Assembly: GCF_030546645.1 (NCBI RefSeq)
Contig: NZ_JAUOTO010000006.1
Location: forward strand, 62,001 to 126,000
From: Flavitalea plasmicola
GTDB taxonomy: Bacteria > Bacteroidota > Bacteroidia > Chitinophagales > Chitinophagaceae
Direction: 5' to 3'
Length of the DNA stretch: 64,000 nucleotides
Every line of letters starts with the position of its first letter. Position 1 is the first letter of the stretch. Under the pieces are notes generated by a model. It made no database searches. It was not told where the DNA came from and saw nothing but the letters and a program-made list of their open reading frames with translations. Below, in pieces: positions 29,558-62,016 of the stretch. The position numbers and the translations under genes are program-made.

Positions 29558-30115
29558 ATGGACAATACCCAAAAACTGGCCTTCAAGTCCCAACTCAAGC
29601 AGTTCGGTCTCGACCTCATCGCCCAACGCATCGCCGCCGCCCGCCAGGCCGCCGACCAGGCACAGGAGGCCGCTAACCAGGAGGAAAAAAGCTCCGCAGG
29701 CGACAAATACGAGACGGGCCGCGCCATGGGCCAGCTCCAGAAAGAAATGCACGCCCGCCAGCAGGCAGAACATGAACGCGAACATGCCGCCCTGCTCCGC
29801 GTCCGCGCCGACGCCCTCTGCACCCACCCCGTCCCCGGCGCCTTTATCCAATGCCAGGATATGTCCTCAGAACGAACCGGAGGTTCGTTGTCCGAAGGAC
29901 AATTATTAGAGGTTTCCGGGAAACGGGTTGATTTTTTCGGATACCCGTTTCCCGGAATTTTCATCTGCGCCGGCCTGGGCAAACATTCCGTCGCCGGCCA
30001 GACCATTCTCTTCCTCTCCCCCGCAGCGCCCCTCGCCAAATCCCTCCTTGACAAAAAGACGGGCGACGAATTCTCCTTCAACGGTCGCACCCTCCGCATA
30101 GAAGATCTTTTCTAA
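29558..30115 (+). CDS. GreA/GreB-like protein with palindromic in-frame insertion
   Basis: The 185-residue protein has a helical, Ala/Glu-rich N-terminal half with SSAGDKYETGRAMGQLQKEM, and a C-terminal beta domain ending SPAAPLAKSLLDKKTGDEFSFNGRTLRIEDL. This matches the Gre-factor-like family of Bacteroidota (some databases call it 3-oxoacyl-ACP synthase by mistake). Between FIQCQ and PGIFICAGLGK, about residues 101-131, there is an extra ~31-residue segment that I do not expect in the family, encoded by DNA made almost wholly of three consecutive hairpins (29871-29955). It keeps the frame. A role in transcription elongation is inferred from the C-terminal domain only. Confidence 0.75.
   Translation: MDNTQKLAFKSQLKQFGLDLIAQRIAAARQAADQAQEAANQEEKSSAGDKYETGRAMGQLQKEMHARQQAEHEREHAALLRVRADALCTHPVPGAFIQCQDMSSERTGGSLSEGQLLEVSGKRVDFFGYPFPGIFICAGLGKHSVAGQTILFLSPAAPLAKSLLDKKTGDEFSFNGRTLRIEDLF
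29871..29955 (+). repeat. Palindromic element copy A, inside a coding region
   Basis: Hairpin 1 is AACGAACC/GGTTCGTT with loop GGA (29871-29889). Hairpin 2 is GTCC-GAA-GGAC (29890-29900). After 15 nt, hairpin 3 has perfect 13-bp arms at 29916-29928 and 29943-29955 around a loop containing TTTTTTCGGA. Copies B (61930) and C (54717) share the first 30-nt design. Confidence 0.85.
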
Positions 30116-30254
30116 GCAGGCCATGCCCATCGAAATCACCATATAAAAACTTATCTTTCAAAAAAATAATCGACAGCAGATTACAAACCCATTCCCCGCA
30201 TCTCTATATAATATTATGTCCTACTTTCCATTATTCAAATCAAGCCGACCATTC

Positions 30255-32189
30255 ATGAGAAAGACTTTCCTGACGATTTTCACCGCCTGCGGCCTGCTTG
30301 CCGCATTTGCCCAGCCGACGGCCAACGGAATATCCATCATCCCCGCCCCCGTCAGCCTGACACCAGGCCAGGGTAGCTTTACGCTGCCCAAAACCATCGC
30401 CATCGAATCAGGCGTTCAGCAGAGCCAGGCCATCACGGATCTGCAAACGCACCTCACCGCCGCCACAGGCTACAAAGTCGTACTCGCCAAATCCGGGATG
30501 CCGGCTACCATCCATCTGACCCTTAACAAGTCTGTCAATACCACATTGGGCGATGAAGGATACGACCTCTCCGTCGCCGCCACCGGCATCACCATCAAGG
30601 CCAACAAGCCGGCCGGCCTCTTCTACGGCGTACAGACCCTCCTGCAGCTGCTCCCGAAAGAGATCGAAAGCCGCACCGTCGTCAAAGGCGTCGCCTGGCA
30701 GGTCCCCTTCGTGACGATCCGCGACTACCCCCGCTTCGGCTGGCGCGGCCTCATGCTGGACGTCTCCCGCCATTTCTTTACCAAACAGGAGGTGAAAGAC
30801 TTCATCGACGAAATGGTGAAATATAAATACAATCTCCTCCACTGGCACCTTACGGACGACCAGGGCTGGCGCATCGAGATCAAGGCCCTCCCCAAGCTGA
30901 CGGAAGTAGGCGCCTGGAACGCCAAACGCGAAGGCCGCTTCGGCACCTTCTCCGCACCCGCCGCCGACGAACCCCGCAACTACGGCGGCTTCTACACCCA
31001 GGATGATATAAAGGAGATGGTCCAATACGCCGCGGCCCGCTTCGTGGACATCCTCCCGGAAGTAGACATCCCCGGCCACTCCCTGGCAGCCATCGCGGCC
31101 TACCCGGAGCTCTCCTGCACGGAAGGCGCTGACAAATACCGCGTCAACTCCGGCGACAAGTTCATGAACTGGTACCCCGGCGGCTTTTCCGCGATCATCG
31201 ACAACACCCTCTGCCCGGCCAATGAAAAAGTATATCCCTTCCTCGATAAAGTGTTTACGGAAGTAGCCGCCCTTTTCCCCTTCGGCTATATCCACGTGGG
31301 CGGCGACGAATGCGCCAAGAACTTCTGGGAAAAAAGCGATGCCATCCGGCAGCTGATGCAGAAAGAGAACCTGAAAAATATGCAGGAGGTCCAAAGCTAT
31401 TTCGAGAAAAGAGTAGAAAAGATCGTTGAGTCCAAAGGCAAAAAGGTCATCGGCTGGGACGAGATCCTGGAAGGCGGCCTGGCTCCCAACGCGGCCGTCA
31501 TGAGCTGGCGTGGGATCAAAGGCGGTATCGAGGCCGCAAAACAGGGCCACCAGGTAGTCATGTCCCCCACCACCTTCGTATACCTGGATTACATGCAGGG
31601 CGACGCCATCATCGAACCGCCGGTATACGCTACCCTCCGCCTCAACACGGCCTACTCCTTCGAACCCGTCCCCGACGGCGTCGACCCCTCCCTCATCAAA
31701 GGCGGACAAGCCAACCTCTGGACAGAGCAGGTGTACAATACCCGCCACCTTCAATACATGATATGGCCCCGCAGCCTGGCCGTAGCCGAATGCCTGTGGT
31801 CGCCCAAAGAAAAAAAGAGCTGGACGGACTTCGTCCGCAGGACGGAAGCCACCTTCCAGCGTATGGACATCCAGCAGATAAAGTATGCACGCTCCCTGTA
31901 TGATGTAGCTTTCACGGCAAAAAAAGACCCCAGCGCCAGCGACTCCCTCTCCATCGGGCTGTCCACGGAGGTACCGGGCCTGGATATTTACTACAGCTTC
32001 GATAACTCGAACCCCGATAGCTTCTATCCCAAATACGCCCACCCCCTGACAGTGCCGAAGGACGCAGACATGCTGAAAGTGATCACCTACAGGGATGGCC
32101 GCCCCATCGGGCGCCAGCTCGACATGCCCATCAATGAACTAAAACGCCGCGCCGGTCTGAAAGACAAGCCGGTCCCTCCCGCTGAATAA
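30255..32189 (+). CDS. Family GH20 beta-N-acetylhexosaminidase
   Basis: The ATG at 30255 starts a signal peptide (MRKTFLTIFTACGLLAAFAQ); an upstream ATG at 30216 adds 13 residues without need. The product is 644 residues. An N-terminal GH20b-type domain (IIPAPVSLTPGQGSFTLP) precedes the catalytic barrel (FGWRGLMLDVSRHFFTKQEVKDFID, LLHWHLTDDQGWRIEIK, DILPEVDIPGHSLAA). The catalytic Asp-Glu pair is D351-E352 in HVGGDECAK. VIGWDEILEGG and MSWRG complete the site. It releases terminal GlcNAc or GalNAc from chitin-derived or glycoprotein oligosaccharides, probably in the periplasm. A C-terminal part after residue ~540 looks like a small beta domain. Confidence 0.95.
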   Translation: MRKTFLTIFTACGLLAAFAQPTANGISIIPAPVSLTPGQGSFTLPKTIAIESGVQQSQAITDLQTHLTAATGYKVVLAKSGMPATIHLTLNKSVNTTLGDEGYDLSVAATGITIKANKPAGLFYGVQTLLQLLPKEIESRTVVKGVAWQVPFVTIRDYPRFGWRGLMLDVSRHFFTKQEVKDFIDEMVKYKYNLLHWHLTDDQGWRIEIKALPKLTEVGAWNAKREGRFGTFSAPAADEPRNYGGFYTQDDIKEMVQYAAARFVDILPEVDIPGHSLAAIAAYPELSCTEGADKYRVNSGDKFMNWYPGGFSAIIDNTLCPANEKVYPFLDKVFTEVAALFPFGYIHVGGDECAKNFWEKSDAIRQLMQKENLKNMQEVQSYFEKRVEKIVESKGKKVIGWDEILEGGLAPNAAVMSWRGIKGGIEAAKQGHQVVMSPTTFVYLDYMQGDAIIEPPVYATLRLNTAYSFEPVPDGVDPSLIKGGQANLWTEQVYNTRHLQYMIWPRSLAVAECLWSPKEKKSWTDFVRRTEATFQRMDIQQIKYARSLYDVAFTAKKDPSASDSLSIGLSTEVPGLDIYYSFDNSNPDSFYPKYAHPLTVPKDADMLKVITYRDGRPIGRQLDMPINELKRRAGLKDKPVPPAE

Positions 32190-32197
32190 TACACGAT

Positions 32198-32905
32198 ATG
32201 CAAGACGTCCTGGGACAGGCCATCGCGGATTATTATCATATGACCTCCAGCGCTAAGCTCTGGGTGCATAGTCACCATGGACCCAGAGAGCTCATGCCCG
32301 TGGAAACCTATTTCCGCAACGCAGACAACATGCCGGAACTGGAATGGATCGCCCTCCAGCATTGCCGGGGTCGCGTCATGGACATCGGCGCCGGCGCCGG
32401 CAGCCACACCCTCTTCCTCCAGCAGACAGGCCTGCACGCCACAGCCCTCGAGATCTCCCCCAAAGCCGCGACGGTCATCGAAGCCAGGGGCGTGAAGCAC
32501 ATCCGCTGCCAGGACTTCTTTGCTATCGACGCCCGTAAAAAATATGACACCCTCCTCCTGCTGATGAATGGCATCGGCCTGGCTGGCACCATCGAAGGCC
32601 TCCACGCCTTCCTGAAAAAAGCACGCACCCTCCTCCGCCCGGGCGGCCGCCTGGTCTTCGACTCCTGCGACGTCGCTTACCTGTACAACGGCCAGCCCCC
32701 AAAAGGATCGCCCTATTATGGAGAAGTGCTGTATCAATACGAATACCGTCGCATGCGCAGCGACTGGTTCCACTGGCTCTTCATCGACCGCCACACCATG
32801 GGTCGCATTGCCGCAAAAGAAGGATGGAATGTTAAGTTATTATATAAGGACAAATTCGACCACTATCTGGTGGAATGTACCCCGGTTTCCGCCCCGGCAT
32901 CCTGA
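32198..32905 (+). CDS. Class I SAM-dependent methyltransferase
   Basis: A 235-residue protein starting 8 bp after the hexosaminidase stop. The SAM-binding motif I is VMDIGAGAGSHTLFLQ (residues ~61-76), followed by LEISPKAATVIEARG (motif II) and LLRPGGRLVFDSCDV. The fold is clear; the substrate is not. It runs into a convergent neighbour with only 2 bp between stops. Confidence 0.88.
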   Translation: MQDVLGQAIADYYHMTSSAKLWVHSHHGPRELMPVETYFRNADNMPELEWIALQHCRGRVMDIGAGAGSHTLFLQQTGLHATALEISPKAATVIEARGVKHIRCQDFFAIDARKKYDTLLLLMNGIGLAGTIEGLHAFLKKARTLLRPGGRLVFDSCDVAYLYNGQPPKGSPYYGEVLYQYEYRRMRSDWFHWLFIDRHTMGRIAAKEGWNVKLLYKDKFDHYLVECTPVSAPAS

Positions 32906-32907
32906 TC

Positions 32908-34065
32908 TCACTTCCTGATCCAATACCAGGGGATCTTCCATTTCCCCTGGCCAACATCAATATTGACAGAATCTCCGGTATTGATCCCGTTGTACAGGAC
33001 CTCTGACACCTCTTCGCTATTCCCTTCCCCAAACCGGCCCCAGGCGGAAAGTTCCAGGTAATGCAACTTGCTGTCGGTGGAAACTCGTTTGCTCAATACC
33101 CTTACCCGCCAATGCGCCGGCACGCTGCGGTCATAATAACAGTTCGTGATGAAAATAAGCCCAAAACTATAAGCACAGGATATTGCAAGAATGCAAATGA
33201 AGGACAATACTTTCTCCTTTTCAATGGCCTTCCTGCACGCAATGATGCAGATCGCCGCAGTTATCAGGCCCCCCGTTCCTACCAGCACCCACCCCCTTGC
33301 AGCAAATTGATAGACCATATAATCCCGCAGAATAGCCACCAGTACCCCGACAACAGGAAGCACCAGCAGCAATATCAATGATGGATAAACGCTGTCCTTC
33401 CTGCTAGCCAGCCTGATCAACCCTTTCGAATACCAGATCGCGTACACCGCCACCCAGGGCGCTGCCAGCAGCACGATCATCAGCCACTCGCGCGGCTCCG
33501 GATAGACCATCTCCCACAACAACAGCGCGATGGCGTTCACAGTCCCGGCCGAAGCGATGCTCTTCGCTCTTTTCAGGCTCATCCAACGGGCATCCTCCGT
33601 GTCCCCGAATGCCTCGTTTGCCAGGATTGCCTTTCTTTCCCGCCAAGGCTCCATCCCACCCAAATTGTCGAACCTCGCTCTCACCCATTGCACCAGTTCC
33701 CGCTGCCGCTCCAGGTTGGATGGCATTTGCAGGCTTCTTCCCCCGGTCTTGTGCACAAGCAACAATCGATTGCCCACGATAATGCGATAGCCTTCTATAT
33801 CCCGCAGTCCTATGGACCGTGTCCGGAAAATACCCCGCACCAAGATCGAATGATCGTCGATCGTCACCCGGGCCCGGACGATAGAAAGCACAAGCAACAG
33901 GGAGAACACGATAAAGAACACGGCCAGGAACCAATACAATCCCACTTGTCCGGATGTCGCCGTACTTTGCCGCGCCATGGATACAAAATCCAACACCAGC
34001 GCCAACGCCAGGCATGAAAACACAAAGGCGAGGATCTTTAAGCCTTTACCAACACGATATACCAT
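32908..34065 (-). CDS. Multi-span membrane protein of unknown function
   Basis: The 385-residue protein has two N-terminal membrane helices, then a PH-like stretch (about 65-130: ARVTIDDHSILVRGIFRTRSIGLRDIEGYRII) as in bacterial PH-domain membrane proteins, then four or five further helices (about 170-310), and a soluble C-terminal part (RVRVLSKRVSTDSKLHYLELSAWGRFG). No enzyme motif is visible. It follows the GH5 gene on the same strand with 7 bp between them, so they may be cotranscribed. Confidence 0.75.
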   Translation of the reverse strand: MVYRVGKGLKILAFVFSCLALALVLDFVSMARQSTATSGQVGLYWFLAVFFIVFSLLLVLSIVRARVTIDDHSILVRGIFRTRSIGLRDIEGYRIIVGNRLLLVHKTGGRSLQMPSNLERQRELVQWVRARFDNLGGMEPWRERKAILANEAFGDTEDARWMSLKRAKSIASAGTVNAIALLLWEMVYPEPREWLMIVLLAAPWVAVYAIWYSKGLIRLASRKDSVYPSLILLLVLPVVGVLVAILRDYMVYQFAARGWVLVGTGGLITAAICIIACRKAIEKEKVLSFICILAISCAYSFGLIFITNCYYDRSVPAHWRVRVLSKRVSTDSKLHYLELSAWGRFGEGNSEEVSEVLYNGINTGDSVNIDVGQGKWKIPWYWIRK

Positions 34066-34072
34066 AAATAAC

Positions 34073-35215
34073 TCAATACTTTTTCATCAGCTCCAACAAT
34101 TCCCTATCCAGCTTATGCCCATGCCAATCCTCATAAGCTACATCCTCCCTGCCTGAATCCAATATCCCAAAATCACCGATGAAATTCCACGTGGCAAACC
34201 CGATCTGGTGCGCGGAAAGGATCTCCAGCACATCGCTGAACCAGGCGATAAACACCCCATGCGGCGTTTTTTTCCAACAGCCCGCCTCTCCGCAGTGAAC
34301 CCCCACGCCCTTTTGCATCAGCTCGATCCAGGGCCGGTAATACGCTTCCAGCATTGGCCGGCTCAGGTACTGATTTCCCACCTGGCCCGGCCACAGGGGC
34401 TCCGGCAAATGCTCGGGGTCCTTATTCGCCCAGGGCGCCTTATAATGGGAGATGGCATGCGGATAATAACCCCTGCAGCTTTGCGCAATATCCAGCTCCA
34501 TCAGCTCGGGTATCACGCTATTCCCGCCGCTATTGCCGTCCGCGATCACCAGGTGGTCCGGGTTCTCCTTACGGATTGCCTCCAGCGCTGCCTTCGCCAC
34601 TTTCCGGTAGACCTCCCCGGGAACAGGCCCCGACGGCGAATGCTGATCATTCATATCCTTCCGCATGCTGGGCTCATTCAACAGGTCGAAGCTGATCTGC
34701 TTCCTGGAAACATTTTTATATGCCTTCGCCCACATGTTCCAGTGCCAGCAAAAAGCGTCCTGCGCCGCCTGGTCCGTCCATAAATTATACGGCTCATGAA
34801 ACCCCGCATTGATGCAATACCCGGGCGCCCTGTGCAGGTTCAGGCAAACATGCATGCCATACTTATGTCCCATGGCCACCAACGCCTGGATCTCCTCCAC
34901 CTTCTGCTGGTCCACCTGGTAAACCTCCTCCGGCCTAATGTTCCTTCCCCGGTCAAACTTGAGATAATGCGGATAAGCGATCGGTATCCGGATAAAATCA
35001 AACCCCCAGTCACGCATCCACGAAAAGTGCTCCTCCGTCGTGGGCCGCCGGGACGGCGTGGGATCAGGAATATAAAAATCAAGTAAGTTGAACCCTTTCC
35101 ATTTCGGTAGCTTGTTAACAGGAGCAATAGCCGCGGCTGCCAGCGCCGCCTTGTCGGCCAGTGACCACCCCACTGTGATAAGTCCCGTTTGCTGTAGAAA
35201 AGACCTGCGATCCAT
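34073..35215 (-). CDS. Family GH5-like glycanase (cellulase fold), Tat-type signal
   Basis: The 380-residue protein has an N-terminus MDRRSFLQQTG with a twin-arginine motif followed by an alanine-rich hydrophobic stretch, which suggests Tat export. The barrel carries the GH5 acid/base glutamate E181 in FDLLNEPS and a likely nucleophile E310 in VHCGEAGCW. WGFDFIRIPIAYPHY and HVCLNLHRAPGY are the expected early strands. Members cleave beta-1,4-glucans or mannans. The exact substrate cannot be told. It is divergent from the HTH gene at 35354. Confidence 0.88.
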   Translation of the reverse strand: MDRRSFLQQTGLITVGWSLADKAALAAAAIAPVNKLPKWKGFNLLDFYIPDPTPSRRPTTEEHFSWMRDWGFDFIRIPIAYPHYLKFDRGRNIRPEEVYQVDQQKVEEIQALVAMGHKYGMHVCLNLHRAPGYCINAGFHEPYNLWTDQAAQDAFCWHWNMWAKAYKNVSRKQISFDLLNEPSMRKDMNDQHSPSGPVPGEVYRKVAKAALEAIRKENPDHLVIADGNSGGNSVIPELMELDIAQSCRGYYPHAISHYKAPWANKDPEHLPEPLWPGQVGNQYLSRPMLEAYYRPWIELMQKGVGVHCGEAGCWKKTPHGVFIAWFSDVLEILSAHQIGFATWNFIGDFGILDSGREDVAYEDWHGHKLDRELLELMKKY

Positions 35216-35353
35216 GGCAATCGATTTTTCGTTCCGCTAATCTACCTCAATTTGTCAGCACCCGATAAGTTAACTAACCGTTAAAATATCAATCTCTTAT
35301 GGCATGGAAATTGTCTTAATGCCATTATATCTTTTCACCTTAATCTACAGTAT

Positions 35354-35638
35354 ATGGAAAGGATAAAAAGAATGCGCATGGTGTTTTGTAAATACCTGAG
35401 CGCCATTGCAAAAGAAAAGAACGTCACCATCGAGGACATCGTCCGGAAAACAAATAAATCCTATACCGAAGTGAAAAAGATCATGGAAGGTTTCATGTCC
35501 CCTTCCTTCGATGACCTGCTCATTATTGCCGATTTTCTCGGCATCCACGTGACGCTGAATGCGGAGATACCGCTGGGACATAAAAAGATCATGAAGTCCA
35601 TTCCCATCATCACTGGCTCCAATAATGTTACCAATTGA
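35354..35638 (+). CDS. Small XRE-family helix-turn-helix protein
   Basis: The 94-residue protein from the ATG at 35354 has an evident HTH: FCKYLSAIAKEKNVTIEDIVRKTNKSYTEVKKIMEGFMSPSFDDLLIIADFLGI, where TIEDIVRKTNKSYTEVKKIM is the helix-turn-helix and SFDDLLIIADFLG the conserved fourth helix. It is a likely small regulator, 138 bp from the divergent GH5 gene. Its target is unknown. Confidence 0.75.
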   Translation: MERIKRMRMVFCKYLSAIAKEKNVTIEDIVRKTNKSYTEVKKIMEGFMSPSFDDLLIIADFLGIHVTLNAEIPLGHKKIMKSIPIITGSNNVTN

Positions 35639-35677
35639 TCCGTTCCTTGCGCCATTAACCATAAACCCATCCTAACA

Positions 35678-36229
35678 TTGACAAATACATTCATAGAGAC
35701 AGATCGCCTGTTGCTGCGCCGTTGGCGAAAGGCTGACCACGAAGCCTTTATCCGCATGAACCAGGACGTGCTGGTCAGAAAATACTTTCCGTGCCTGCTC
35801 AGCAGGGAAGAATCCCTGGCGCATATCGCTACCATGGATAAACGCATCGTCGAAAATGGCTACGGTCTGTTCGCCGCCGAGCTGAAAGCAACAGGCGATT
35901 TTATTGGTTTCATTGGCATGACCTCTCCAGGCTTCATAAGTGACTTTACCCCCTGCACCGAGATAGGGTGGCGGCTCGACACGCCCTTCTGGAAACAAGG
36001 CCTGGCGACAGAAGGCGCCAAAGCCTGCCTGGACACCGCCTTCCAAAAGTGGGGACTGGAAGAGATTTATTCCTGGACCTCCATGCACAACCTGGCCTCC
36101 GAAAAAGTAATGATCCGCATCGGCATGACCCGCCAGGGTACCTTCTTCCATCCTTCCATTCCCGCCGACAACTGGCTGTGCGAGCACGTCCTTTACAAGA
36201 TCAGCAATCCTACATCCACCAAAAAATAG
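35678..36229 (+). CDS. GNAT-family N-acetyltransferase (RimJ/RimL type)
   Basis: The 183-residue protein starts at a TTG at 35678 (TNTFIETDRLLLRRWRKADHEAF), the family's usual beginning; no in-frame ATG fits better. Motifs include GFIGMTSP, TEIGWRLDTPFWKQGLATEGAKACLDTAF (acetyl-CoA binding region) and SEKVMIRIGMTRQGTF. Proteins of this group acetylate N-terminal amino groups of ribosomal proteins or small molecules; here the substrate is open. Confidence 0.88.
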   Translation: MTNTFIETDRLLLRRWRKADHEAFIRMNQDVLVRKYFPCLLSREESLAHIATMDKRIVENGYGLFAAELKATGDFIGFIGMTSPGFISDFTPCTEIGWRLDTPFWKQGLATEGAKACLDTAFQKWGLEEIYSWTSMHNLASEKVMIRIGMTRQGTFFHPSIPADNWLCEHVLYKISNPTSTKK

Positions 36230-36340
36230 TTTCCACCTATTTCCCGCCTTTATCCCCATCCGTGTTTTTCCTAACCGATTAGTTCGACGGAATCCATAAT
36301 TTACGCCACTTAACGAGGTAATAATTAACGAAGGCTATAG

Positions 36341-37807: not shown

Positions 37808-37822
37808 CCAAAAGCGTTTAAA

Positions 37823-41911: not shown

Positions 41912-41914
41912 TGG

Positions 41915-51745: not shown

Positions 51746-51775
51746 GTTAAAAGGGTTCACTCGTGGTTACTAAAA

Positions 51776-51818: not shown

Positions 51819-51966
51819 GCATCTGGCCACGGCAATCGTCATTCAGCCGTCAAGTTACTAAGTTCGTGCCGGAAATATTAAATGTTTGCCCGGCATTCTC
51901 CCTTTCGCTAACTTTACTTGTGGTAATGCTGCTTCCCTAGAAACAGGCTGCTCCACACTTTTATTA

Positions 51967-51975
51967 TATTTTTGC
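51967..51975 (+). promoter_or_regulatory. -7 element TATTTTTGC of the helicase gene
   Basis: It matches the Bacteroidota TAnnTTTGC consensus and lies 27 nt before the TTG start. No clear -33 TTG is seen. Confidence 0.45.
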
Positions 51976-51993
51976 CCATTTTAACTCTATAAT

Positions 51994-53316: not shown

Positions 53317-53327
53317 TATTTCTTATC

Positions 53328-54587
53328 TCAGAAGAAAGTCCAGCCCCATCCCAGCAACAGGCAAACCAGCACGATCAGTGGCGAAGGCAGCCGGCTGTTA
53401 TTCAGCAGCAGGAATGTCCCTACTATCACCCCCAGGTTGAGAAAAAGGTCCGTCCAGCTCTCGGAAGACATATCCTTCATCATATAGCAGGCCGAAGCGA
53501 TCATGATTCCCACTACCACTGAATTAATACCCTCCAGCGCACGATATACCACTGCGTATTTTTTCAGGTTATGCCAGATGGGAAAAAAGAAAAGCACCAG
53601 CAGCGCGCTGGGCAGGAAGATGCCGGTCGTCGCTATAAAACATCCCAGCACCTGCATCCCGGTCCCCTTATCCTTCATGGCCATCCCTCCCATAAAAGAG
53701 GTCACGGAAAACACCGGCCCCGGAATCGCCCGGGCCATGCCCGCCCCGGAATAAAAGTCTTCCCGGTTGATACGAATGATATTAGGATTCCGGTGAATGA
53801 GGTTTTGTGATTCCGGGCGAACTACGAATTGTTCGTACATCATGGGAATCAATACGTTACCTCCCCCGAAAACCAGACTGCCAAAGCGATACGTGTTCTC
53901 GAAAAGATTCAGTGGCCGCCGGTTCGGCCAATTGTTCTTCCGGGCTAATTCACTGCCTGCGCCGGCAAGGAGGAAAATAATGGCAAACAGCCAGATATTC
54001 CCCCACTTGATCTTCTTCGGCATCAGCTCTTTTTGCGGGATCCGCCGGTCGCTGAGATTGGTGACAAATCCGCCCAATACCAGGAGGATAGGAAAGATCC
54101 ACGGCGTCTTGAAAAGGATAAAAGTAGCCACCGCGCTCACCAGCAGGATGACGCGGGTGATCGTATTGTGTATGGATATGCGGAACGCTTTGTACGCACC
54201 ATAGGAGATGAACCCCACCGTCATCGGCGCTACAAATCGGAAAAGCGCGGCCGTCTTCAACGTCCGCTCATTGACATAGGCGATAAAAAAGGAAAAAGCC
54301 CCCATCAGGATACAGGCCGGCAATGTCCAGATGATCAGTGTCAGCATCGCCAGGACAACGCCCCCTCTCTTATAACCGATAAGCGTCAGCGTCTGGGTGG
54401 AGCTGGCGCCAGGCAGCAGCTGGCAAAAAGCGCTGTAATCCATCAGTTCCGCCTCGGTGACGTCCCTGCGTTTGCCGACAAACGTCTTCATCATCATCCC
54501 CATATGTCCTTGTGGACCGCCAAAAGCAGAAATACTGTGCAGGAACACCGCCTTGAGGAATGCAATATGTCGGAATAAAACTATCAC
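53328..54587 (-). CDS. Chromate transporter (CHR family)
   Basis: The 419-residue protein starts at GTG 54587 ([32 protein letters not shown]). Two homologous halves carry the CHR signatures: the first half [31 protein letters not shown]; the second [17 protein letters not shown] and [22 protein letters not shown]. Ten to twelve membrane helices are visible. It exports chromate, or imports sulfate-like anions in some homologues. The gene is divergent from the M20 amidohydrolase, with element C between them. Confidence 0.9.
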
Positions 54588-54716
54588 GGTGTTGTCCGGG
54601 TGCGCGTAGTAAACTTTTAATAAGTGTACAATTTATGGCTTGTTGAAAACATGAACAAAATCAATCGATGAACCATCCATTTAAATCCGCTAATTAGTAA
54701 CTTGATCTAAATTACT

Positions 54717-54746
54717 GACCTTCGGTCAACCGACCCGTGGTCGGTT
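54717..54746 (-). repeat. Double-hairpin element copy C
   Basis: Read on the minus strand: AACCGACC/GGTCGGTT with loop ACG, directly followed by GACC-GAA-GGTC. It has the same 30-nt size and arrangement as 29871-29900 and 61930-61959, with different paired bases. It lies 25 bp upstream of the amidohydrolase ATG. No third hairpin of the A/B kind is seen beside it. Confidence 0.8.
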
Positions 54747-54771
54747 CTGCATAAACCAAACCAATCAACAC

Positions 54772-56073
54772 ATGAGAAAATTCCTGCTTTCCCTCGCCGG
54801 CATTTTATTGCCCGCAATGTACATCCTCGCACAAAAAAAAGACATGACTTTGCTCATCAGCGCCGCTGCCGATAAGATCGAGCCAAAGACCATTGCATGG
54901 AGAAGGGATTTTCACGAACATCCCGAGCTGGGCAATCGCGAGGTCAGAACAGCAAAGATCATTGCCGACCATCTCCGCTCCCTGGGACTGGAAGTAAAGG
55001 AAGGCGTGGGCAAGACCGGCGTGGTCGGTATCCTTCGCGGAGCAAAGCCTGGTCCCGTCATCGGTCTGCGTGCGGATATGGATGGACTTCCCCTGGTCGA
55101 AAGAACCTCCCTGCCATTTGCTTCAAAAGTAAGGACCACCTACAATGGCCAGGAGGTAGGCGTCATGCATGCCTGCGGACATGATTCGCACATCGCCATC
55201 CTCATGAGCGTCGCCGAAGTTTTGGCGGGCATGAAACAGGAGCTGAAAGGGACGGTGAAGTTTGTGTTCCAGCCGGCAGAGGAAGGTCCTCCCACAGGCG
55301 AAGAGGGTGGGGCGCCCCTGATGATCAAAGAAGGAGTGCTGGACAATCCAAAAGTAGAGGTGATGTTCGGCCTTCATATTAATTCGGCTACGGAGTCAGG
55401 TAAGATAAAATATCGCAGCGCCGGCGCCATGGCTGCTTCCGATTGGTTCACCCTTAAAGTAAAAGGCAAGGGCACGCACGGATCACAACCCTGGGGAGGC
55501 ATCGATCCCGTCGTCGTTTCCGCGCAGATCATCACAGGACTGCAGACCATCATCAGCCGGCAAACGGAACTGACGAAAGATCCCGCCGTCATCAGTGTTT
55601 GCGTCATCAAAGGGGGCATTCGCTCGAATATCATACCCGAGGAAGTAGAGATGTTAGGCACGATCCGAACGTTGGATACGGCCATGCAGCGCGATATCCA
55701 CGAGAAGATGCAAAGGACAGTCACCAAGATCGCTGAAAGCGCTGGAGCCACTGCCGAGCTTAGTATAGAGAATAAGACCCTTATCACTTATAACAACCCC
55801 GGGCTGGTGAAGAAAATGCTTCCCTCACTGCAAAAAGCAGCAGGAGAGGACAATGTCACCTGGATCGATGCCATGACAGGGTCGGAGGATTTTTCTTTCT
55901 TCGGCGATAAAGTGCCGTCCTTCTTTTTCTTCCTGGGGGGAATGAAGAAAGGCCAGGATCCCCACACCGCCTTTCCCCATCATACGCCCGACTTCTACAT
56001 CGATGAAGCCGGTTTCAAGACAGGCGTAAAAGCCTTCTGCCAGTTGGTAGTGGACTACGCGGGTTCGAACTGA
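54772..56073 (+). CDS. M20-family metal-dependent amidohydrolase, exported
   Basis: The 433-residue protein has the signal peptide MRKFLLSLAGILLPAMYILAQ. The metal-binding residues of the M20/HipO-type amidohydrolases are present: RADMDGLPL (about 100-108), HACGHDSH with C135, H137 and H140, and FQPAEEGPP with E170-E171; a further His is in VEVMFGLHINS and one near the end (TAFPHHTPDFY). Members hydrolyse N-acyl amino acids or indole-acetyl/benzoyl amides. The signal peptide places it in the periplasm. Regulation may involve the hairpin element 25 bp upstream of the start. Confidence 0.92.
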   Translation: MRKFLLSLAGILLPAMYILAQKKDMTLLISAAADKIEPKTIAWRRDFHEHPELGNREVRTAKIIADHLRSLGLEVKEGVGKTGVVGILRGAKPGPVIGLRADMDGLPLVERTSLPFASKVRTTYNGQEVGVMHACGHDSHIAILMSVAEVLAGMKQELKGTVKFVFQPAEEGPPTGEEGGAPLMIKEGVLDNPKVEVMFGLHINSATESGKIKYRSAGAMAASDWFTLKVKGKGTHGSQPWGGIDPVVVSAQIITGLQTIISRQTELTKDPAVISVCVIKGGIRSNIIPEEVEMLGTIRTLDTAMQRDIHEKMQRTVTKIAESAGATAELSIENKTLITYNNPGLVKKMLPSLQKAAGEDNVTWIDAMTGSEDFSFFGDKVPSFFFFLGGMKKGQDPHTAFPHHTPDFYIDEAGFKTGVKAFCQLVVDYAGSN

Positions 56074-56145
56074 TCCTCTTTCCCCGACACCTGTTGTCCG
56101 CCTCTAACGGTCGCTTTGCCACGAGATCTATTGTCCTTTCCTCCT

Positions 56146-56154
56146 TAACTTTAC
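56146..56154 (+). promoter_or_regulatory. -7 element TAACTTTAC, very short leader
   Basis: It lies 12 nt before the YjbR-type gene's ATG at 56158, the same spacing as at 29064 and 41903. Confidence 0.45.
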
Positions 56155-56157
56155 GGA

Positions 56158-56508
56158 ATGGACATCGAATCATTGAGAGAATATTGCCTGAAGAAAAAGG
56201 AAGCCGAAGAAACCTTTCCTTTCGGCGACACCACGTTGGTATTTAAGGTGAGGGGAAAGATGTTCCTGCTGGTGTCCCTCGATAATCCCGTCCTGCAGTT
56301 CAATGTAAAATGCGATCCCGAGAAAGCCATCGAATGGAGAGAACAGTTCCATGCCGTCCAGCCCGGCTATCACATGAATAAGAAAATGTGGAATACAGTC
56401 ATGGTCGATGGCAGCATACCTGCCCGCACCCTGCGGGAAATGATCGATGACTCTTATATGCTGGTGGTAAGATCCTTGCCGAAGAAATCACAGGAAGGAC
56501 TTTTATAG
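56158..56508 (+). CDS. MmcQ/YjbR family protein
   Basis: The 116-residue protein has the YjbR fold signature: MDIESLREYCLKKKEAEETFPFGDTTLVFKVRGKMFLLVSLD, then NVKCDPEKAIEWREQF, VQPGYHMNKKMWNTVMVDGSI, and DDSYMLVVRSLPKK. These are small cytoplasmic proteins sometimes described as DNA-binding (CyaY-like fold); their function is poorly defined. It converges on nadD, with 10 bp between the stops. Confidence 0.9.
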   Translation: MDIESLREYCLKKKEAEETFPFGDTTLVFKVRGKMFLLVSLDNPVLQFNVKCDPEKAIEWREQFHAVQPGYHMNKKMWNTVMVDGSIPARTLREMIDDSYMLVVRSLPKKSQEGLL

Positions 56509-56518
56509 ACTCCCTTGC

Positions 56519-57100
56519 CTATCTATAATATCCATTTCTTTCAATTTCCTCCCTTACCGCATCCGGCACCAGGTAGCGTATTGACTTTCCTTCCTTGATG
56601 TTTTTTCGTATGTGCGTAGCCGAGATCGGCAGGAGAGGAGCATCCAGGACGGTAACTTTCCTGGCCTCCGGAAAAGAGAGCAGCGTCTCGTGCCCGGGAC
56701 GCTTATATACATAAACGGGAAAATTCTGTAATAGCCAGCTGTAATTCTTCCACTTTGGAAGGTTCTGGAAGCTGTCACTCCCCATGATGATAGAGAATTG
56801 ATAAGCGGGAGCAGGATATTTTTCCTGGAGATAGGCAAGGGTATCCACTGTGTAAGATGGCTTGGGTAATTTAAACTCGATATCAGTGGCCTTAAGCCGG
56901 TTTTCCCCTTCAATGGCCGCCTGTACCAGGAAGAGCCGGTGGTATTCATTCAGTAGGGTAGCGGATGGTTTCAAAGGGTTTTGCGGAGAGACCACAAACC
57001 AGATCTGGTCAAGGTCAGTATTCTCCAGCAAATAGTTCGCAATGATCAGGTGCCCATGGTGAATGGGGTTAAAAGATCCGAAGTAAAGCCCTATCTGCAT
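56519..57100 (-). CDS. nadD: Nicotinate-nucleotide adenylyltransferase
   Basis: The 193-residue protein shows the nucleotidyltransferase motif GSFNPIHHGHL (residues 8-18), WFVVSPQNPLK, MGSDSFQNLPKWKNYSWLL and ISATHIR near the end, all diagnostic of NadD. It makes deamido-NAD from nicotinate mononucleotide and ATP in the NAD pathway; nadA, for the same pathway, is about 3.7 kb away. Its ATG shares one base with the stop of the upstream FeoA-like gene, so the two are translationally coupled. Confidence 0.95.
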   Translation of the reverse strand: MQIGLYFGSFNPIHHGHLIIANYLLENTDLDQIWFVVSPQNPLKPSATLLNEYHRLFLVQAAIEGENRLKATDIEFKLPKPSYTVDTLAYLQEKYPAPAYQFSIIMGSDSFQNLPKWKNYSWLLQNFPVYVYKRPGHETLLSFPEARKVTVLDAPLLPISATHIRKNIKEGKSIRYLVPDAVREEIERNGYYR

Positions 57101-57330
57101 TAGTACGCCTCCTCCTCCATAAATATATTATCCGCCTCGTCCAGGCGAAGACTTAGGTTATATCCTGCCACTGTGATTGAGATAGGATCACCCAGGGGGG
57201 CGACCTGTTCCACCCGGATCAGTTCCCCGGGTACACAACCCATTTCCATTAGCTTAAGGAATAGTTCATTCTTTTCAAAAGAGTGGATTCTCGCTACGGT
57301 TCCGGGTTCTAACTCTGATAATCGCTTCAT
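57100..57330 (-). CDS. FeoA-like small protein
   Basis: The 76-residue single SH3-like FeoA domain (KRLSELEPGTVARIHSF, LKLMEMGCVPGELIRVEQVAPLGDPISITVAGYNLSLRLDEADNIFM). In ferrous iron uptake FeoA assists FeoB, but no feoB gene is adjacent here. It is coupled to nadD by a one-base overlap (TAATG). A TACCTTTAC -7-like element lies at 57355-57363 on the minus strand. Confidence 0.88.
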   Translation of the reverse strand: MKRLSELEPGTVARIHSFEKNELFLKLMEMGCVPGELIRVEQVAPLGDPISITVAGYNLSLRLDEADNIFMEEEAY

Positions 57331-57354
57331 TTATTAGTATTTTCTCAATCCTTT

Positions 57355-57363
57355 GTAAAGGTA
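57355..57363 (-). promoter_or_regulatory. -7 element TACCTTTAC for the feoA-nadD operon
   Basis: It is close to the Bacteroidota TAnnTTTG element, about 25 nt upstream of the FeoA-like ATG. Confidence 0.4.
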
Positions 57364-57478
57364 CGTTTTATCGCTTGTGGACGAAATCCTTCCTGGACAA
57401 CGGCAACCCATTGACTTTTATTAATTTTACCCTGAAGTATTTCAAATCATCCTTCAAAAAATTCATTCCTTCACGGAA

Positions 57479-57925
57479 ATGCCATCAAATATGTCCCTTT
57501 CTTCTCCTGTTCAATTTCATTTCCTGGAAGGAGCCCATCTCCTTACCCAACGTACTCATTTAAAGTCGTTTATCTCCAGCCTGTTCAAAAGGGAAAAGAA
57601 AAGGCTGGCTGGGATCCACTACATATTTTGTTCTGATGATTATCTATTGGAAATTAATCGGCAACACTTAAAGCACGATTATTATACAGACATCATCACC
57701 TTTGACCTCTCTGATCCCGGTAAACCTACAAACGCAGAAATCTATATTAGTGTTGACAGGGTGAGGGACAATGCACGGCAGTTTAAGACTTCTTTAAGGA
57801 ATGAATTACATCGGGTTATCTTTCATGGAGCCCTCCACTTATGCGGATACAAAGATAAAAAGCCAAAGGACCAGGCAATTATGAGGAAAATGGAGGAAAA
57901 ATATCTGGCCTTATACTTTAAGTAA
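57479..57925 (+). CDS. ybeY: Endoribonuclease/rRNA maturation factor YbeY
   Basis: The 148-residue protein (a second ATG at 57491 is also possible) has the UPF0054 signature: LLEINRQHLKHDYYTDIITFDLSD, AEIYISVDRVRDNA, and ELHRVIFHGALHLCGYKDKK. The metal site has the two conserved histidines in HGALHL; the third position, His in many bacteria (GYDH), is Asp-Lys here, as is usual in Bacteroidota. YbeY matures rRNA 3' ends and takes part in ribosome quality control. A TAATTTTAC element lies at 57422-57430. ParB-type palindrome 1 begins 8 bp after the stop. Confidence 0.92.
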   Translation: MPSNMSLSSPVQFHFLEGAHLLTQRTHLKSFISSLFKREKKRLAGIHYIFCSDDYLLEINRQHLKHDYYTDIITFDLSDPGKPTNAEIYISVDRVRDNARQFKTSLRNELHRVIFHGALHLCGYKDKKPKDQAIMRKMEEKYLALYFK

Positions 57926-57933
57926 AGGAGGAA

Positions 57934-57949
57934 CGTTCCACGTGGAAAC
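57934..57949. promoter_or_regulatory. parS-like ParB site 1
   Basis: GTTCCACGTGGAAAC is a one-mismatch form of the palindrome GTTCCACGTGGAAC. It is embedded in wider arms GGAGGA (57927-57932) and TCCTCC (57951-57956), so transcripts can also form a hairpin after ybeY. Confidence 0.7.
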
Positions 57950-57981
57950 ATCCTCCATTCACAATAATTATCAAAGAATGT

Positions 57982-57997
57982 AGTTCCACGTGGAACT
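57982..57997. promoter_or_regulatory. parS-like ParB site 2
   Basis: AGTTCCACGTGGAACT is a perfect 16-bp palindrome matching the core of known bacterial parS sites (TGTTCCACGTGGAACA type). It lies 48 bp from site 1. The rest of 57926-58256 holds no gene and nothing else recognised. Confidence 0.8.
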
Positions 57998-58256
57998 ATT
58001 CATCGCAGTTTTCAAAGGATCTCCCACCGTTCCATAAACTATCACCCTCTCTCCATCCTGGTACTTAAGCACCCCACACCCGGATAGACGCCCATGCCCC
58101 CTTGAACAATTCGCTCCACAGCCCGCCAAAAGGATTTTACTTCATTCATCCTCCATCCTCTTCGCGATCCATATCCCATAAACCTTCCCCATTCTTACTA
58201 GCATTTCCCCCCTTCTACATCCTAAACCTACCCCTTCCTCAATCCCCTATATAAAG

Positions 58257-58265
58257 TACCTTTGC
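58257..58265 (+). promoter_or_regulatory. -7 element TACCTTTGC before mnmG
   Basis: An exact TAnnTTTGC match 14 nt before the mnmG ATG, which predicts a very short or absent leader. Confidence 0.5.
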
Positions 58266-58270
58266 ATCTT

Positions 58271-60133
58271 ATGTTCCCTTCATATGATATTATTGTAGTC
58301 GGCGCTGGCCATGCCGGATGTGAAGCCGCCGCCGCTGCCGCCAACCTGGGCTCAAAGGTTCTCCTCATCACCATGAACATGCAGACCATTGCGCAAATGA
58401 GCTGCAATCCTGCCATGGGTGGCATTGCAAAAGGCCAGATTGTTCGGGAGATCGACGCCTTGGGCGGCTATTCGGGTATCGTCACAGATAAGAGTATGAT
58501 CCAGTTCAGGATGCTCAATCGCTCGAAAGGACCCGCCATGTGGAGCCCAAGAGCACAAAACGATCGCATGCTATTTGCCGCCACCTGGCGGGAAATGCTG
58601 GAGAATACCCCCAATGTTGATTTCTACCAGGACATGGTCAATGGCATCCTTGTTAAAAACAACCAGGTTCATGGGGTCATCACGGGTCTCGGACATAAAA
58701 TAGAAGCAAAGGCTGTGGTGGTAACCAGCGGAACTTTCCTCAACGGAGTGATCCATATAGGCGAAAAGAGATTTGGGGGTGGGAGAGTGGCGGAAAAAGC
58801 ATCCACCGGTATAACAGAACAGCTGGTATCCCTGGGATTGGAAAGCGACCGGCTCAAAACAGGGACTCCCCCCAGAATAGATGGAAGAAGCCTGGACTAT
58901 ACAAAGATGGAAGAACAAAAGGGAGATGAAGAGATCGTAGGCTTCTCTTACCTCGATGTTCCAAAACCCGCCCGGCAAAGAAGCTGCTGGATCACCTACA
59001 CCAGCCCCGCCGTACATGATATTCTCAAAACAGGTTTCGACAGAAGTCCCATGTATACAGGTCGCATCGAAGGGGTAGGTCCCAGATACTGTCCAAGTAT
59101 TGAGGATAAGATCAACCGGTTCGCAGAAAGGGAAAGGCACCAGCTCTTCATCGAACCCGAAGGCTGGAATACCGTAGAGATCTACGTCAATGGCTTCAGC
59201 ACCTCCCTTCCCGAAGAAGTACAATACCAGGCATTGAAAGAAGTGCAGGGTTTTGAGAGCGTCCGGATCTTCCGGCCGGGATATGCCATCGAATATGACT
59301 ACTTCCCACCCACCCAGCTGACCCATTCGCTGGAAACAAAATTATTGCAGAACCTGTTCTTTGCCGGTCAGATCAACGGAACCACCGGCTATGAAGAAGC
59401 CGCCTGCCAGGGTCTTATGGCTGGCATCAATGCCCATCAGAAAGTACGTGCCCTGGAACCTTTCATCCTGAAAAGGAGCGAAGGGTATATCGGCGTGCTT
59501 ATCGACGATCTCATCAGCAAGGGCACGGAAGAACCTTACCGCATGTTCACTTCGAGGGCCGAGTTTCGCACCCTCCTTCGCCAGGATAATGCCGACCTCC
59601 GCCTGACTGAAATGAGCTACAGGTTGGGACTCGCATCACAGGAAAGGATGGATAAAACAATCGCCAAAAGATCCGGCGTAGAAAAAATAAAAGAGATCCT
59701 GAAAGAATACTCCCTGGATCCGGTGGAATCGGAACAATTCCTGCAGGCAAAAAATTCAGCCGTCCTTACCCAAAAACAAAAAGCCATCCAAGTATTGCTG
59801 CGTCCCAATATCGATCTGCCCTCCATGATCCGCTCTATCCCCCGGCTCCAAAATGCCTTCGATGATTTCAATGCCGAGACGATCGAGCAAGCGGAGATCC
59901 AGGTAAAATATGACGTGTACATTGAAAAAGAAAAAGAGCTGGTACAAAAGATGGCCCAGCTGGAAGACCTGCTGATCCCGGACAATTTCAATTACGATCG
60001 CATCTCTTCACTCTCCAATGAGGCCCTGCAGAAATTCAAACGCGTCCGTCCCCGCACGCTCGGCCAGGCTAGCCGCATCAGCGGCGTCAATCCCAGTGAC
60101 GTGCAGATCCTGATGGTCTATATGGGAAGATAA
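58271..60133 (+). CDS. mnmG: tRNA uridine-5-carboxymethylaminomethyl modification enzyme
   Basis: The ATG at 58271 gives 620 residues (a TTG nine bases upstream is less likely). The FAD-binding motif is VVGAGHAGCEAA (near residues 9-20), then MSCNPAMGGIAKGQIVREIDALGG, GTFLNGVIHIGEKRFGGGR, KTGTPPRIDGRSLDY and RYCPSIEDKINRF, with YEEAACQGLMAGINA and RAEFRTLLRQDNADLRLTE. MnmG works with MnmE at the wobble uridine of several tRNAs. In many bacteria this gene (gidA) lies close to oriC and parAB, which agrees with the parS-like sites just upstream. A terminator follows. Confidence 0.97.
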   Translation: MFPSYDIIVVGAGHAGCEAAAAAANLGSKVLLITMNMQTIAQMSCNPAMGGIAKGQIVREIDALGGYSGIVTDKSMIQFRMLNRSKGPAMWSPRAQNDRMLFAATWREMLENTPNVDFYQDMVNGILVKNNQVHGVITGLGHKIEAKAVVVTSGTFLNGVIHIGEKRFGGGRVAEKASTGITEQLVSLGLESDRLKTGTPPRIDGRSLDYTKMEEQKGDEEIVGFSYLDVPKPARQRSCWITYTSPAVHDILKTGFDRSPMYTGRIEGVGPRYCPSIEDKINRFAERERHQLFIEPEGWNTVEIYVNGFSTSLPEEVQYQALKEVQGFESVRIFRPGYAIEYDYFPPTQLTHSLETKLLQNLFFAGQINGTTGYEEAACQGLMAGINAHQKVRALEPFILKRSEGYIGVLIDDLISKGTEEPYRMFTSRAEFRTLLRQDNADLRLTEMSYRLGLASQERMDKTIAKRSGVEKIKEILKEYSLDPVESEQFLQAKNSAVLTQKQKAIQVLLRPNIDLPSMIRSIPRLQNAFDDFNAETIEQAEIQVKYDVYIEKEKELVQKMAQLEDLLIPDNFNYDRISSLSNEALQKFKRVRPRTLGQASRISGVNPSDVQILMVYMGR

Positions 60134-60158
60134 TTTAATACGAACCACCCGAAATAGA

Positions 60159-60185
60159 AATAGGCTCCCAAAGAGCCTATTTTTT
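60159..60185 (+). terminator. Rho-independent terminator, rightward
   Basis: The stem AATAGGCTC/GAGCCTATT with a 5-nt loop runs into a stretch of six T. It ends mnmG. Confidence 0.85.
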
Positions 60186-60242
60186 GTTATATCACATTGA
60201 ATATCAATTATTTAACTAATAATCCCACCTGCTCAACCAATA

Positions 60243-61253
60243 TCACAATCCATATTGCGCGCTGATTTCCAACATTCTATCGATTGGCTTGCGCGCAGCC
60301 TTCATCAGCGTTTCATCCATGATCAGCTCCGGCTTCTCATACTTCAAACACAAATACAGCTTTTCCAGCGTATTGAGTTTCATGTGAGGGCAATCATTGC
60401 AAGCACAGCTATTGTTCGGGGGCGCAGGTATAAAGGTCTTCTGGGGAGAGGCAAGCTCCATCTGGTGCAATATACCGGCCTCTGTAGCCACTATGTATTC
60501 CTGGGCGTCATCCCGCTGCGTATATTTCAACAAGCCCGTGGTTGAGCCTATGAAGTCCGCTATGCGCAGGATCGGCTCTTCACATTCGGGATGTGCGATC
60601 AGCTTCGCCTTGGGATGCCGGATCTTGAGTTTCGTGATCTTCTCCAGGCTGAATATCTCATGTACCATACAGGCGCCATCCCAAAGCAACATGTCCCTGC
60701 CCGTCTTCTTGATCAGGTAAGCGCCCAGGTTGCGGTCCGGCGCGAAAATAATAGGCTGGTCCCTGGGTACGCTTTCCACGATCTTCTCCGCGTTCGACGA
60801 GGTGCAGATAATATCGCTCAGCGCCTTTACTTCCGCCGAACAGTTGATATAGGAAATGACGATATGATCCGGGTGCTTCTCTTTAAATGCCTTGAATAAA
60901 AACCCCGGCGCCGAGTCAGCCAGCGAACACCCCGCCTTCAGGTCCGGCAACACCACTTTTTTCTGCGGGTTGAGGATCTTCGCTGTTTCCGCCATGAAAT
61001 GCACACCCGCAAAAAGGATCAGGTCCGCCTTGGTTCCCGCCGCCTGCTGCGCCAGTCCCAGGCTATCCCCCAGGTAATCCGCCACATCCTGGATATCCGC
61101 CTCCTGGTAATAATGCGCAAGAATGATCGCATTTTTTTCCTTTTTCAGCACCTCGATCTCCTTGAAAAGATCCAGCTCCGGCGAAACATCGATATCCAAA
61201 AACCCTTTTTTCTCCAAATTCGCCACTGCGGTATCCATGTTAATATCTACCAT
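60243..61253 (-). CDS. nadA: Quinolinate synthase
   Basis: The 336-residue protein (a second ATG at 61238 removes five residues) contains [86 protein letters not shown] and [16 protein letters not shown], the complete quinolinate synthase set. Three cysteines (in [15 protein letters not shown] and NDCPHM) fit the [4Fe-4S] ligands. It condenses iminoaspartate with dihydroxyacetone phosphate in de novo NAD synthesis. No nadB or nadC is adjacent. Upstream lies the AT-rich, DnaA-box-containing region. Confidence 0.96.
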
Positions 61254-61312
61254 AGTATTTAATAATATTTATTTATTTATAAAAATAGCTATTACTATTA
61301 GGATGGTGAATT

Positions 61313-61321
61313 CGTGGATAA
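61313..61321 (-). promoter_or_regulatory. DnaA-box-like TTATCCACG
   Basis: One mismatch to TTATCCACA, on the minus strand, next to the AT-rich stretch. Confidence 0.5.
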
Positions 61322-61360
61322 GAATTTCTATTGGGTATTGGAATACAACGATATCCATAC

Positions 61361-61369
61361 TTATTCACA
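61361..61369 (+). promoter_or_regulatory. DnaA-box-like TTATTCACA
   Basis: One mismatch to TTATCCACA. Confidence 0.45.
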
Positions 61370-61591
61370 GCATTCCACAATTACTTAACAATGAATAACC
61401 CTGTTTGGATCGATGTTTCGGGTGCTTTTCCACCACAGTGGAATAAATAAGTGTCCGGAAAAGATTTTTGGAGCGCAGCTGTTAGCGAAGGTGGAATAAC
61501 TGTGCATTTGTACACCCGGATGCCTCCGGAACCTTCCCCGCTTAAAGTTATTACCTAACTTATCCCAAATTCGAAGGCCCCGGAACATGGG

Positions 61592-61600
61592 TTATCCACG
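61592..61600 (+). promoter_or_regulatory. DnaA-box-like TTATCCACG
   Basis: The same 9-mer as at 61313, on the opposite strand. Confidence 0.5.
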
Positions 61601-61857
61601 AAAAAGGGCGCTTATTCATATTCAGGTGTTAACTAGGGTTTCACGCCAGGCCGGGCATAGGCCGGGAGGATTGTTGATAAACGTTCCACACCTGCGAAAG
61701 CATTAGGCTTATAAAAAAAGCCCGACAATACCAAAACGGAGTATATATGAATTTGTTTTTTAAGCGCACTAAAATATTCTTCAGACACCCGGTGCCACCC
61801 CCTGAAAAACCCCTGCCCGATATTTTTGAAACCCAGCACAGCAGGCGGTTTCGCCTA

Positions 61858-61866
61858 TTTTCCACA
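61858..61866 (+). promoter_or_regulatory. DnaA-box-like TTTTCCACA
   Basis: One mismatch to TTATCCACA; it abuts the promoter of the folding-factor gene. Confidence 0.45.
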
Positions 61867-61867
61867 A

Positions 61868-61898
61868 TTTGTTCATAATATTTTTTACCCTATCTTCG
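61868..61898 (+). promoter_or_regulatory. Promoter of the folding-factor gene
   Basis: TTTG at 61868-61871 and TATCTTCG at 61891-61898 are 19 bp apart, which fits the Bacteroidota -33/-7 arrangement with one mismatch. It predicts a leader of roughly 120 nt carrying the hairpins of element B. Confidence 0.45.
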
Positions 61899-61929
61899 CC
61901 ATCCGTTCAAAAAAACGAACGGTTAGCAA

Positions 61930-62016
61930 AGCGGACCACCGGTCCGCTGGCCGAAGGCCCATCATAAGCCGTGCACAGGGTATGGGTTAATTTTCGGAGT
62001 AAGCTATACCCTGTGC
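61930..62016 (+). repeat. Palindromic element copy B, in the leader of the folding-factor gene
   Basis: AGCGGACC/GGTCCGCT with loop ACC (61930-61948) is directly followed by GGCC-GAA-GGCC (to 61959). After 13 nt, perfect 11-bp arms GCACAGGGTAT (61973-61983) and ATACCCTGTGC (62006-62016) enclose a loop with TTAATTTTCGGA, close to that of copy A. Just before it, CCGTTC/GAACGG form another small stem. Confidence 0.85.

Follow-up and report, generated by a model that had tools for sequence, protein, structure and literature searches.

A dispersed, probably mobile REP-like palindrome with an exchangeable third hairpin in one group of Puia genomes

The 64,000-nt stretch of Flavitalea plasmicola DNA analysed here (the window; contig NZ_JAUOTO010000006.1, positions 62,001 to 126,000) contains three copies of a dispersed palindromic element that is best read as a REP-like (repetitive extragenic palindromic) mobile palindrome of a new type. 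An earlier note on this DNA had described the copies as 30-nt double hairpins, and their positions, strands, arms and loops proved accurate, including the second stems GTCC/GGAC, GACC/GGTC and GGCC/GGCC. These 30-mers form the core, at the 5′ side, of an element that measures about 90 nt and consists of two short hairpins (HP1 and HP2), then a linker and finally a third hairpin (HP3). The proposed unit was thus correct as a core and incomplete as a whole, a third hairpin following the linker at 29871 and 61930 and being unclear at 54717 (Table 1). A covariance model (CM) of the three-hairpin form (R1) also found only these three copies in the window; the genome holds many more. The 54717 copy precedes a chromate-transporter gene of its own strand (Pfam, 53328-54587) by about 130 nt, and the 3′ end of the 61928 copy lies 9 nt ahead of the likely ATG (62027) of a SurA-like gene (Pfam, 62024-63085).

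Table 1. Element copies in the window and the gene that holds one of them
Feature	Position	Strand	Parts and scores
Full three-hairpin copy	29869..29958	+	HP1 29871-29889; HP2 29890-29900; linker; HP3 ~29913-29958; CM 96.8 bits
GreA/GreB-like gene, 185 aa, holding the 29869-29958 copy in frame	29558..30115	+	PF01272 20.3 bits, under the Pfam cut-off of 26.9
Core copy, no clear HP3	54717..54746	-	HP1 54728-54746; HP2 54717-54727; CM match 54658-54748, 40.1 bits
Full three-hairpin copy	61928..62017	+	HP1 61930-61948; HP2 61949-61959; HP3 ~61972-62017; CM 88.4 bits

HP1 has a stem of 8 bp and HP2 a stem of 4 bp with the loop GAA. In the consensus, AG or AA stands directly 5′ of HP1, the linker between HP2 and HP3 is CATCATTAG, and HP3 is a long and variable hairpin. 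The core pattern ACCNNNGGTNNNNNGNCCGAAGGNC has 17 exact matches in the source genome (G000; labels such as G006, G008, G016, G018, G021 and G049 denote other genomes searched), far above chance and against 0 for the reversed-pattern control, and in most of these 17 copies the core is followed by the conserved linker and a longer third hairpin. A long form of 137-151 nt, modelled separately (R2), has an expanded HP2 and extra hairpins; in it one hairpin (GTAACC..GGTTAC) is nearly constant, one stem covaries (GACC/GGTC, GAAC/GTTC, GAGC/GCTC, GCCC/GGGC) and the internal loops are near-invariant. Among 255 distinct matches, 21 reach at least 125 nt (one antisense shadow included) and 26 are shorter than 75 nt. 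At one locus, G006 has the long form (L312) and G000 the short one (L025); at a second, G000 has the long form complete with HP3 (L125) and G006 a 56-nt core that lacks HP3 (L274). Thus, the HP2 insert and HP3 are separable modules on the core. At L221:1413-1589 (G044:C519), two copies stand in direct tandem, 88 nt apart, with HP3 almost alike. The element, at 90-151 nt, codes no transposase gene. A terminator role is not favoured, as no T run after HP3 is common to the copies inspected.

R1 detected at least 72 copies in the source genome at E<=0.01 and at least 84 at E<=10 (150 of 1963 candidates scored), at least 144 in G006 and at least 149 in G049; at most 150 candidates were scored per genome, so that all these counts are lower bounds. 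Carriers make up 15 of 33 Puia genomes (11/24 in a first set and 4/9 in an added set). R1 found the element in 0/15 genomes of other families outside the genus and in 0/7 more distant genomes having relatives of the protein RAYT-A described below. Under stricter filters, R1 matched 2 of 298 genomes of the order, both Puia, and R2 matched the source genome alone among 395 genomes of the class. In viral contigs, the core pattern had 1 match and the long-form pattern 12, but neither covariance model matched any of these 13 loci, which we ascribe to chance. The element is so far confined to one group of Puia, which looks like one clade. Ten antisense shadows of better matches were removed from the 255 matches, leaving 245 copies; these include deliberately chosen lower-scoring G006 copies and are not a random sample.

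The earlier note had read the base changes between copies as compensatory and had suggested a covariance-model search of the genome and its relatives; this search yielded further copies, and covariation in aligned copies was well above shuffled controls. Of the 17 pattern copies, the 14 whose third hairpin is clear were aligned; the share of paired cells was 85.3%, 19/28 pairs had changed on both sides, and the covariation score was 0.434. Shuffles scored 0.165 (0/500 came up to 0.434), and slid partners scored no more than 0.145. Sixteen long copies behaved similarly (22/38 pairs with double changes; score 0.389 vs 0.152 shuffled). In the orthologous copies L033 (G000) and L052 (G016), HP3 reads TTGCGC/GCGCAA and CCGGGC/GCCCGG, respectively, which amounts to three double changes in six pairs. 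This compensatory pair at a single locus indicates that the two arms do change in a coupled way, be it through selection or through copying of one arm from the other. On the modelled strand, G.U pairs outnumbered A.C mismatches in HP1 (47 vs 16), HP2 (4 vs 2) and HP3 (80 vs 23) across 208 copies, in alignments fitted to a model that itself favours a G.U excess (the 208 were drawn from 266 alignment rows by dropping identical sequences and copies with <20 Watson-Crick pairs).

Does the element move? Nine copies face an element-free orthologous site (L018, L073, L268, L218, L106:11377, L106:5209, L226, L106:9394 and L231), which argues that it does and bears out the earlier note's suggestion of a mobile palindrome of REP-like type. 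The window copy in the GreA/GreB-like gene is missing from the G006 ortholog, where the matches to residues 1-102 and 133-185 are adjacent. Thus, 90 nt were inserted in frame; relatives of this protein in 16 other Puia genomes align on one or both sides of the insert. The L073 copy, which lies between RAYT-A and an extracytoplasmic function (ECF) sigma gene in G021, is likewise absent from the orthologous spacers L193, L195 and L203. L106 (G021:C278:8000-20000) is a ribosomal-protein operon (S5, L6, S8, S14, L5, L22, S19, L2, L4 and L15) with eight R1 matches, all oriented with the genes; in G000 (L105), several orthologous spacers lack the element.

A minority of copies carry what may be a trace of insertion. 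In 10 of the 245 copies (0.2 expected), the element start is abutted by one half of a direct repeat of 8 nt or more, the other half being the 3′ arm of HP3 at the 3′ end of the element. Such repeats occurred in only 8 of 9757 mismatched pairings (11/10165, against 10/255, when the shadows were left in), and repeats of at least 10 nt in 8/245 copies and 0/9757 mismatched pairings. The abutting repeats range from 8 to 26 nt (L074, 26; L121, 19; L073, 18; L275, 17; L112, 16). Both units of the tandem pair L221 are counted among the ten, the repeat of the second unit lying in the first. At L073, the only repeat site with orthologs at hand, the repeat is host DNA, the start of the ECF sigma gene, and 13 nt of the HP3 5′ arm are complementary to the repeat plus 3 nt beyond it. 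HP3 can also be swapped on a constant body: L121 and L111, and likewise L304 and L306, differ by about 6-7 mismatches in a body of about 90 nt and carry different HP3. The earlier note had taken the conserved pairing as a sign of selection on a folded form or of a mobile palindrome. Pairing is indeed kept, but such selection is not its sole possible source: because the HP3 arm is target sequence in some copies, insertion itself may renew a stem.

At L109:1913-2109 and L133:1487-1564 (G000:C15 and C11), the closing stretch of the coding sequence upstream (AAGAGCCTGAGAACGGAGTGA, KSLRTE-stop) makes up HP1 itself, and another copy of that stretch lies downstream of the element; this is a second kind of target-derived arm.

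Gene context could be classified for 161 of the 255 matches after setting aside 79 with short flanks and 15 at ends, or 153 without shadows. All but six of the 153 are intergenic (147/153), and one of the six inside called genes was verified. In gaps between co-directional genes, 70 copies are sense and 30 antisense (p=7.9e-5), and 39/147 intergenic copies lie between divergent genes. Gaps with and without elements are alike in type (shadows included, with genes called by a caller of our own): co-directional 106/155 vs 69/93, divergent 41 vs 16, convergent 8 vs 8. Elsewhere in the window, adjacent gene pairs at 14719-19647 and 21289-26124 encode proteins of 1177 + 460 aa and 1145 + 461 aa, which by size and order resemble those of SusC/SusD-type genes; the large proteins are identical at 1120/1126 aligned residues, which points to a recent duplication.

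The earlier note had also proposed a search for a REP-associated tyrosine transposase (RAYT), and RAYT-like genes are present in the same genomes. RAYT-A, a RAYT relative of about 198 aa, is encoded outside the window at G000:C16:211981-212574. It occurs at >=58% identity in exactly the 15 carriers and in 0/18 non-carriers, where the best match reaches 35%, leaving aside segments of about 46 residues in G043 with 46-47% identity. All 15 carriers also encode another RAYT relative, RAYT-B, on the same strand upstream of RAYT-A; it has no Pfam match. RAYT-B adjoins a UvrD-type gene in 14/15; G018 returned no UvrD match. Identity to the source-genome copy is 64-89% for RAYT-A and 68-90% for RAYT-B (alignments of seven). 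RAYT-A matches NF047646 over positions 6-146 of 146 with 67.9 bits, below the cut-off of 80. Its AlphaFold model is of low confidence (mean predicted local distance difference test score, pLDDT, 56), and the first 30 Foldseek matches listed for this model are all IS200/IS605- or REP-type transposases. RAYT-A keeps the HUH motif but has lost the catalytic Tyr in 15/15 carriers (H in 12, S in 2, E in 1), whereas all eight non-carrier relatives keep it (alignment A8); RAYT-B has lost both HUH histidines in 15/15. With these residues gone, a role of the pair in moving the element is no more than suggested, and the co-occurrence linking pair and element is itself only suggestive. As the carriers group together by UvrD, it may reflect one inheritance event; the nearest non-carrier by UvrD, G047 (86%), has neither element nor RAYT pair.

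Two further sets of genes touch this question. The more distant Chitinophagaceae metagenome-assembled genome ES-bin-292 encodes two nearly identical RAYT-A relatives (L252 and L253; 49% identity) that keep HUH; Tyr is seen in one, the other is cut at the contig end, and R1 found no element there. In G000, L208:2030-2509 (C14) encodes an IS200/IS605-type transposase (NF033573, KQEEHH motif), a candidate mover. Genes of this type are not favoured, since similar Y1 proteins of 140-170 aa, among which L208 alone was typed, occur in the non-carriers G014 and G047 and were unseen in some carriers.

What is the nature of the element? We consider it probable that it is a non-autonomous, REP-like mobile palindromic element that spread within one Puia clade and whose HP3 stem is exchangeable. 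One strand, DNA or RNA, would fold into HP1, HP2, the conserved linker and an HP3 with an exchangeable stem. Insertion would put the element beside its target, which would be duplicated to become the 3′ arm of HP3; the 5′ arm, complementary to the target, would have chosen it by pairing or copied it by template switching. Combined with structural constraint, renewal of this kind could explain why HP3 stems are highly variable yet paired. Conceivably, the co-inherited and catalytically degenerate RAYT-like pair might bind the hairpins while another enzyme cuts and joins. A bolder version, in which the 5′ arm is a target-matching segment of an otherwise constant structured element, insertion takes place where this arm pairs with the target or else rewrites the arm to match, the duplicated target becomes the 3′ arm and the dead RAYT pair acts as a hairpin-binding scaffold, seems doubtful to us. 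Several observations weigh against the main reading. As many as 235 of the 245 copies have no abutting repeat, and the 29869 copy brought both arms of HP3 with it, so that target capture would be either not the general rule or soon erased. To see if the 5′ arm is inherited or new, both HP3 arms of ten copies were set against all others and showed no clear difference, and L109 and L133, near gene ends, have their repeats outside HP3. The flanks of the element-free sites are 70-90% identical, and the 10-30 nt beside the element are often unaligned; movement is read from these orthologous sites. RAYT-A and RAYT-B lack catalytic residues, an element lies beside the RAYT locus in only 1/13 loci examined, and the carriers, with UvrD identities of 87-100%, resemble one clade.

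Alternatively, the fold could act as RNA, being transcribed in leaders and spacers and controlling translation, processing or stability of the neighbouring mRNA, in which case the pairing would reflect RNA selection. The sense bias in co-directional gaps, the G.U excess on the modelled strand, the common orientation of the eight ribosomal-protein-operon copies and the near-invariant internal loops of the long form are all consistent with this idea. However, if one strand acted as single-stranded DNA, the orientation and G.U biases would be equally expected, and the alignments are model-fitted. Moreover, the element-free orthologous sites indicate that copies are locally dispensable, and many copies lie between divergent genes or antisense in co-directional gaps. 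We therefore regard an RNA element as unlikely. A classical REP system, in which RAYT-A and RAYT-B are active transposases mobilising the element by single-strand cutting and joining, would account for the NF047646 and Foldseek matches and for the strict co-occurrence of RAYT-A and element, but it is hard to reconcile with catalytic residues lost in every carrier, a consensus without a GT[AG]G foot and RAYT loci without flanking elements in 12/13, and it strikes us as improbable to a degree beyond the RNA reading. Least probable of all, in our opinion, is that arm-to-arm copying (quasi-palindrome correction) in inactive repeats makes the paired changes by itself, with neither selection nor target capture involved. 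The great length of HP3 stems speaks for it, and copying would preserve pairing at orthologous sites such as L033/L052; yet this process leaves unexplained the direct repeats shared with host sequence, as well as the conserved linker, the GAA loop and the long-form internal loops.

As a REP-like mobile palindrome, the element resembles several known systems without coinciding with any. Rfam 15 gave no family match in the window and one unrelated sub-threshold match across eight element loci, and a literature search found no paper describing the element, nor one reporting such a RAYT pair from Puia, in keeping with the earlier note, which knew of no named family with this layout. Like REP/RAYT systems (REPtrons), it is a high-copy, dispersed and mostly extragenic palindrome with a RAYT gene in the same genome (15/15 carriers, though under the NCBIfam cut-off). 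Three defining features that were tested, a GT[AG]G 5′ foot, a RAYT gene flanked by repeats (1/13 here) and catalytic HUH and Tyr, were not found, and for this reason we do not place it in the canonical family. In-frame insertion in protein genes is a common mode of Rickettsia palindromic elements; it occurs here too, at the one verified copy, but insertion in genes is rare here (6/153 inside called genes). IS200/IS605 elements have subterminal hairpins recognised as single strands and recognise their target via base pairing. Target duplication is not known in that family, in contrast to the abutting 8-26-nt repeats of 10/245 copies, and here no transposase gene lies inside the element. GTAG and CGTC REPs, as described in PMC3733652, measure 20-40 nt and have a terminal tag. 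They share with the present element high copy number, complementary stem changes and a mostly intergenic location with some copies in genes, but differ from its three hairpins, its 90-151 nt and its consensus without such a tag. The closest published system found is TnpA_Y1 subclass 2.6 of Bacteroidetes (Quentin et al. 2018, PMC6006769). Atypical structures that lack a GT[AG]G foot flank the genes of this subclass and have copies elsewhere in the genome. Both involve Bacteroidetes, a RAYT-like protein with W-Q and xIHxNP context, no GT[AG]G and dispersed copies. However, the subclass 2.6 proteins kept for the tree have HuH and Y, whereas the two neighbouring relatives here are missing Tyr in one case and HUH in the other, and subclass 2.6 genes are flanked by their structures whereas the element is near 1/13 loci. 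Overlap of the element with those structures is possible.

For the question of how REP-like elements spread, this family offers copies that still show a target repeat and an arm built from it. The compensatory pair at one locus allows true co-evolution to be told apart from effects of copy families, and with a conserved RAYT pair that lacks catalytic residues, the idea that RAYTs were domesticated as binding proteins can be put to the test. The family also carries a warning that compensatory changes in dispersed hairpins need not mean RNA selection. If a target-matching 5′ arm proved true, the element would move with a guide that is renewable and templated by its target, which would set it apart from known REPs.

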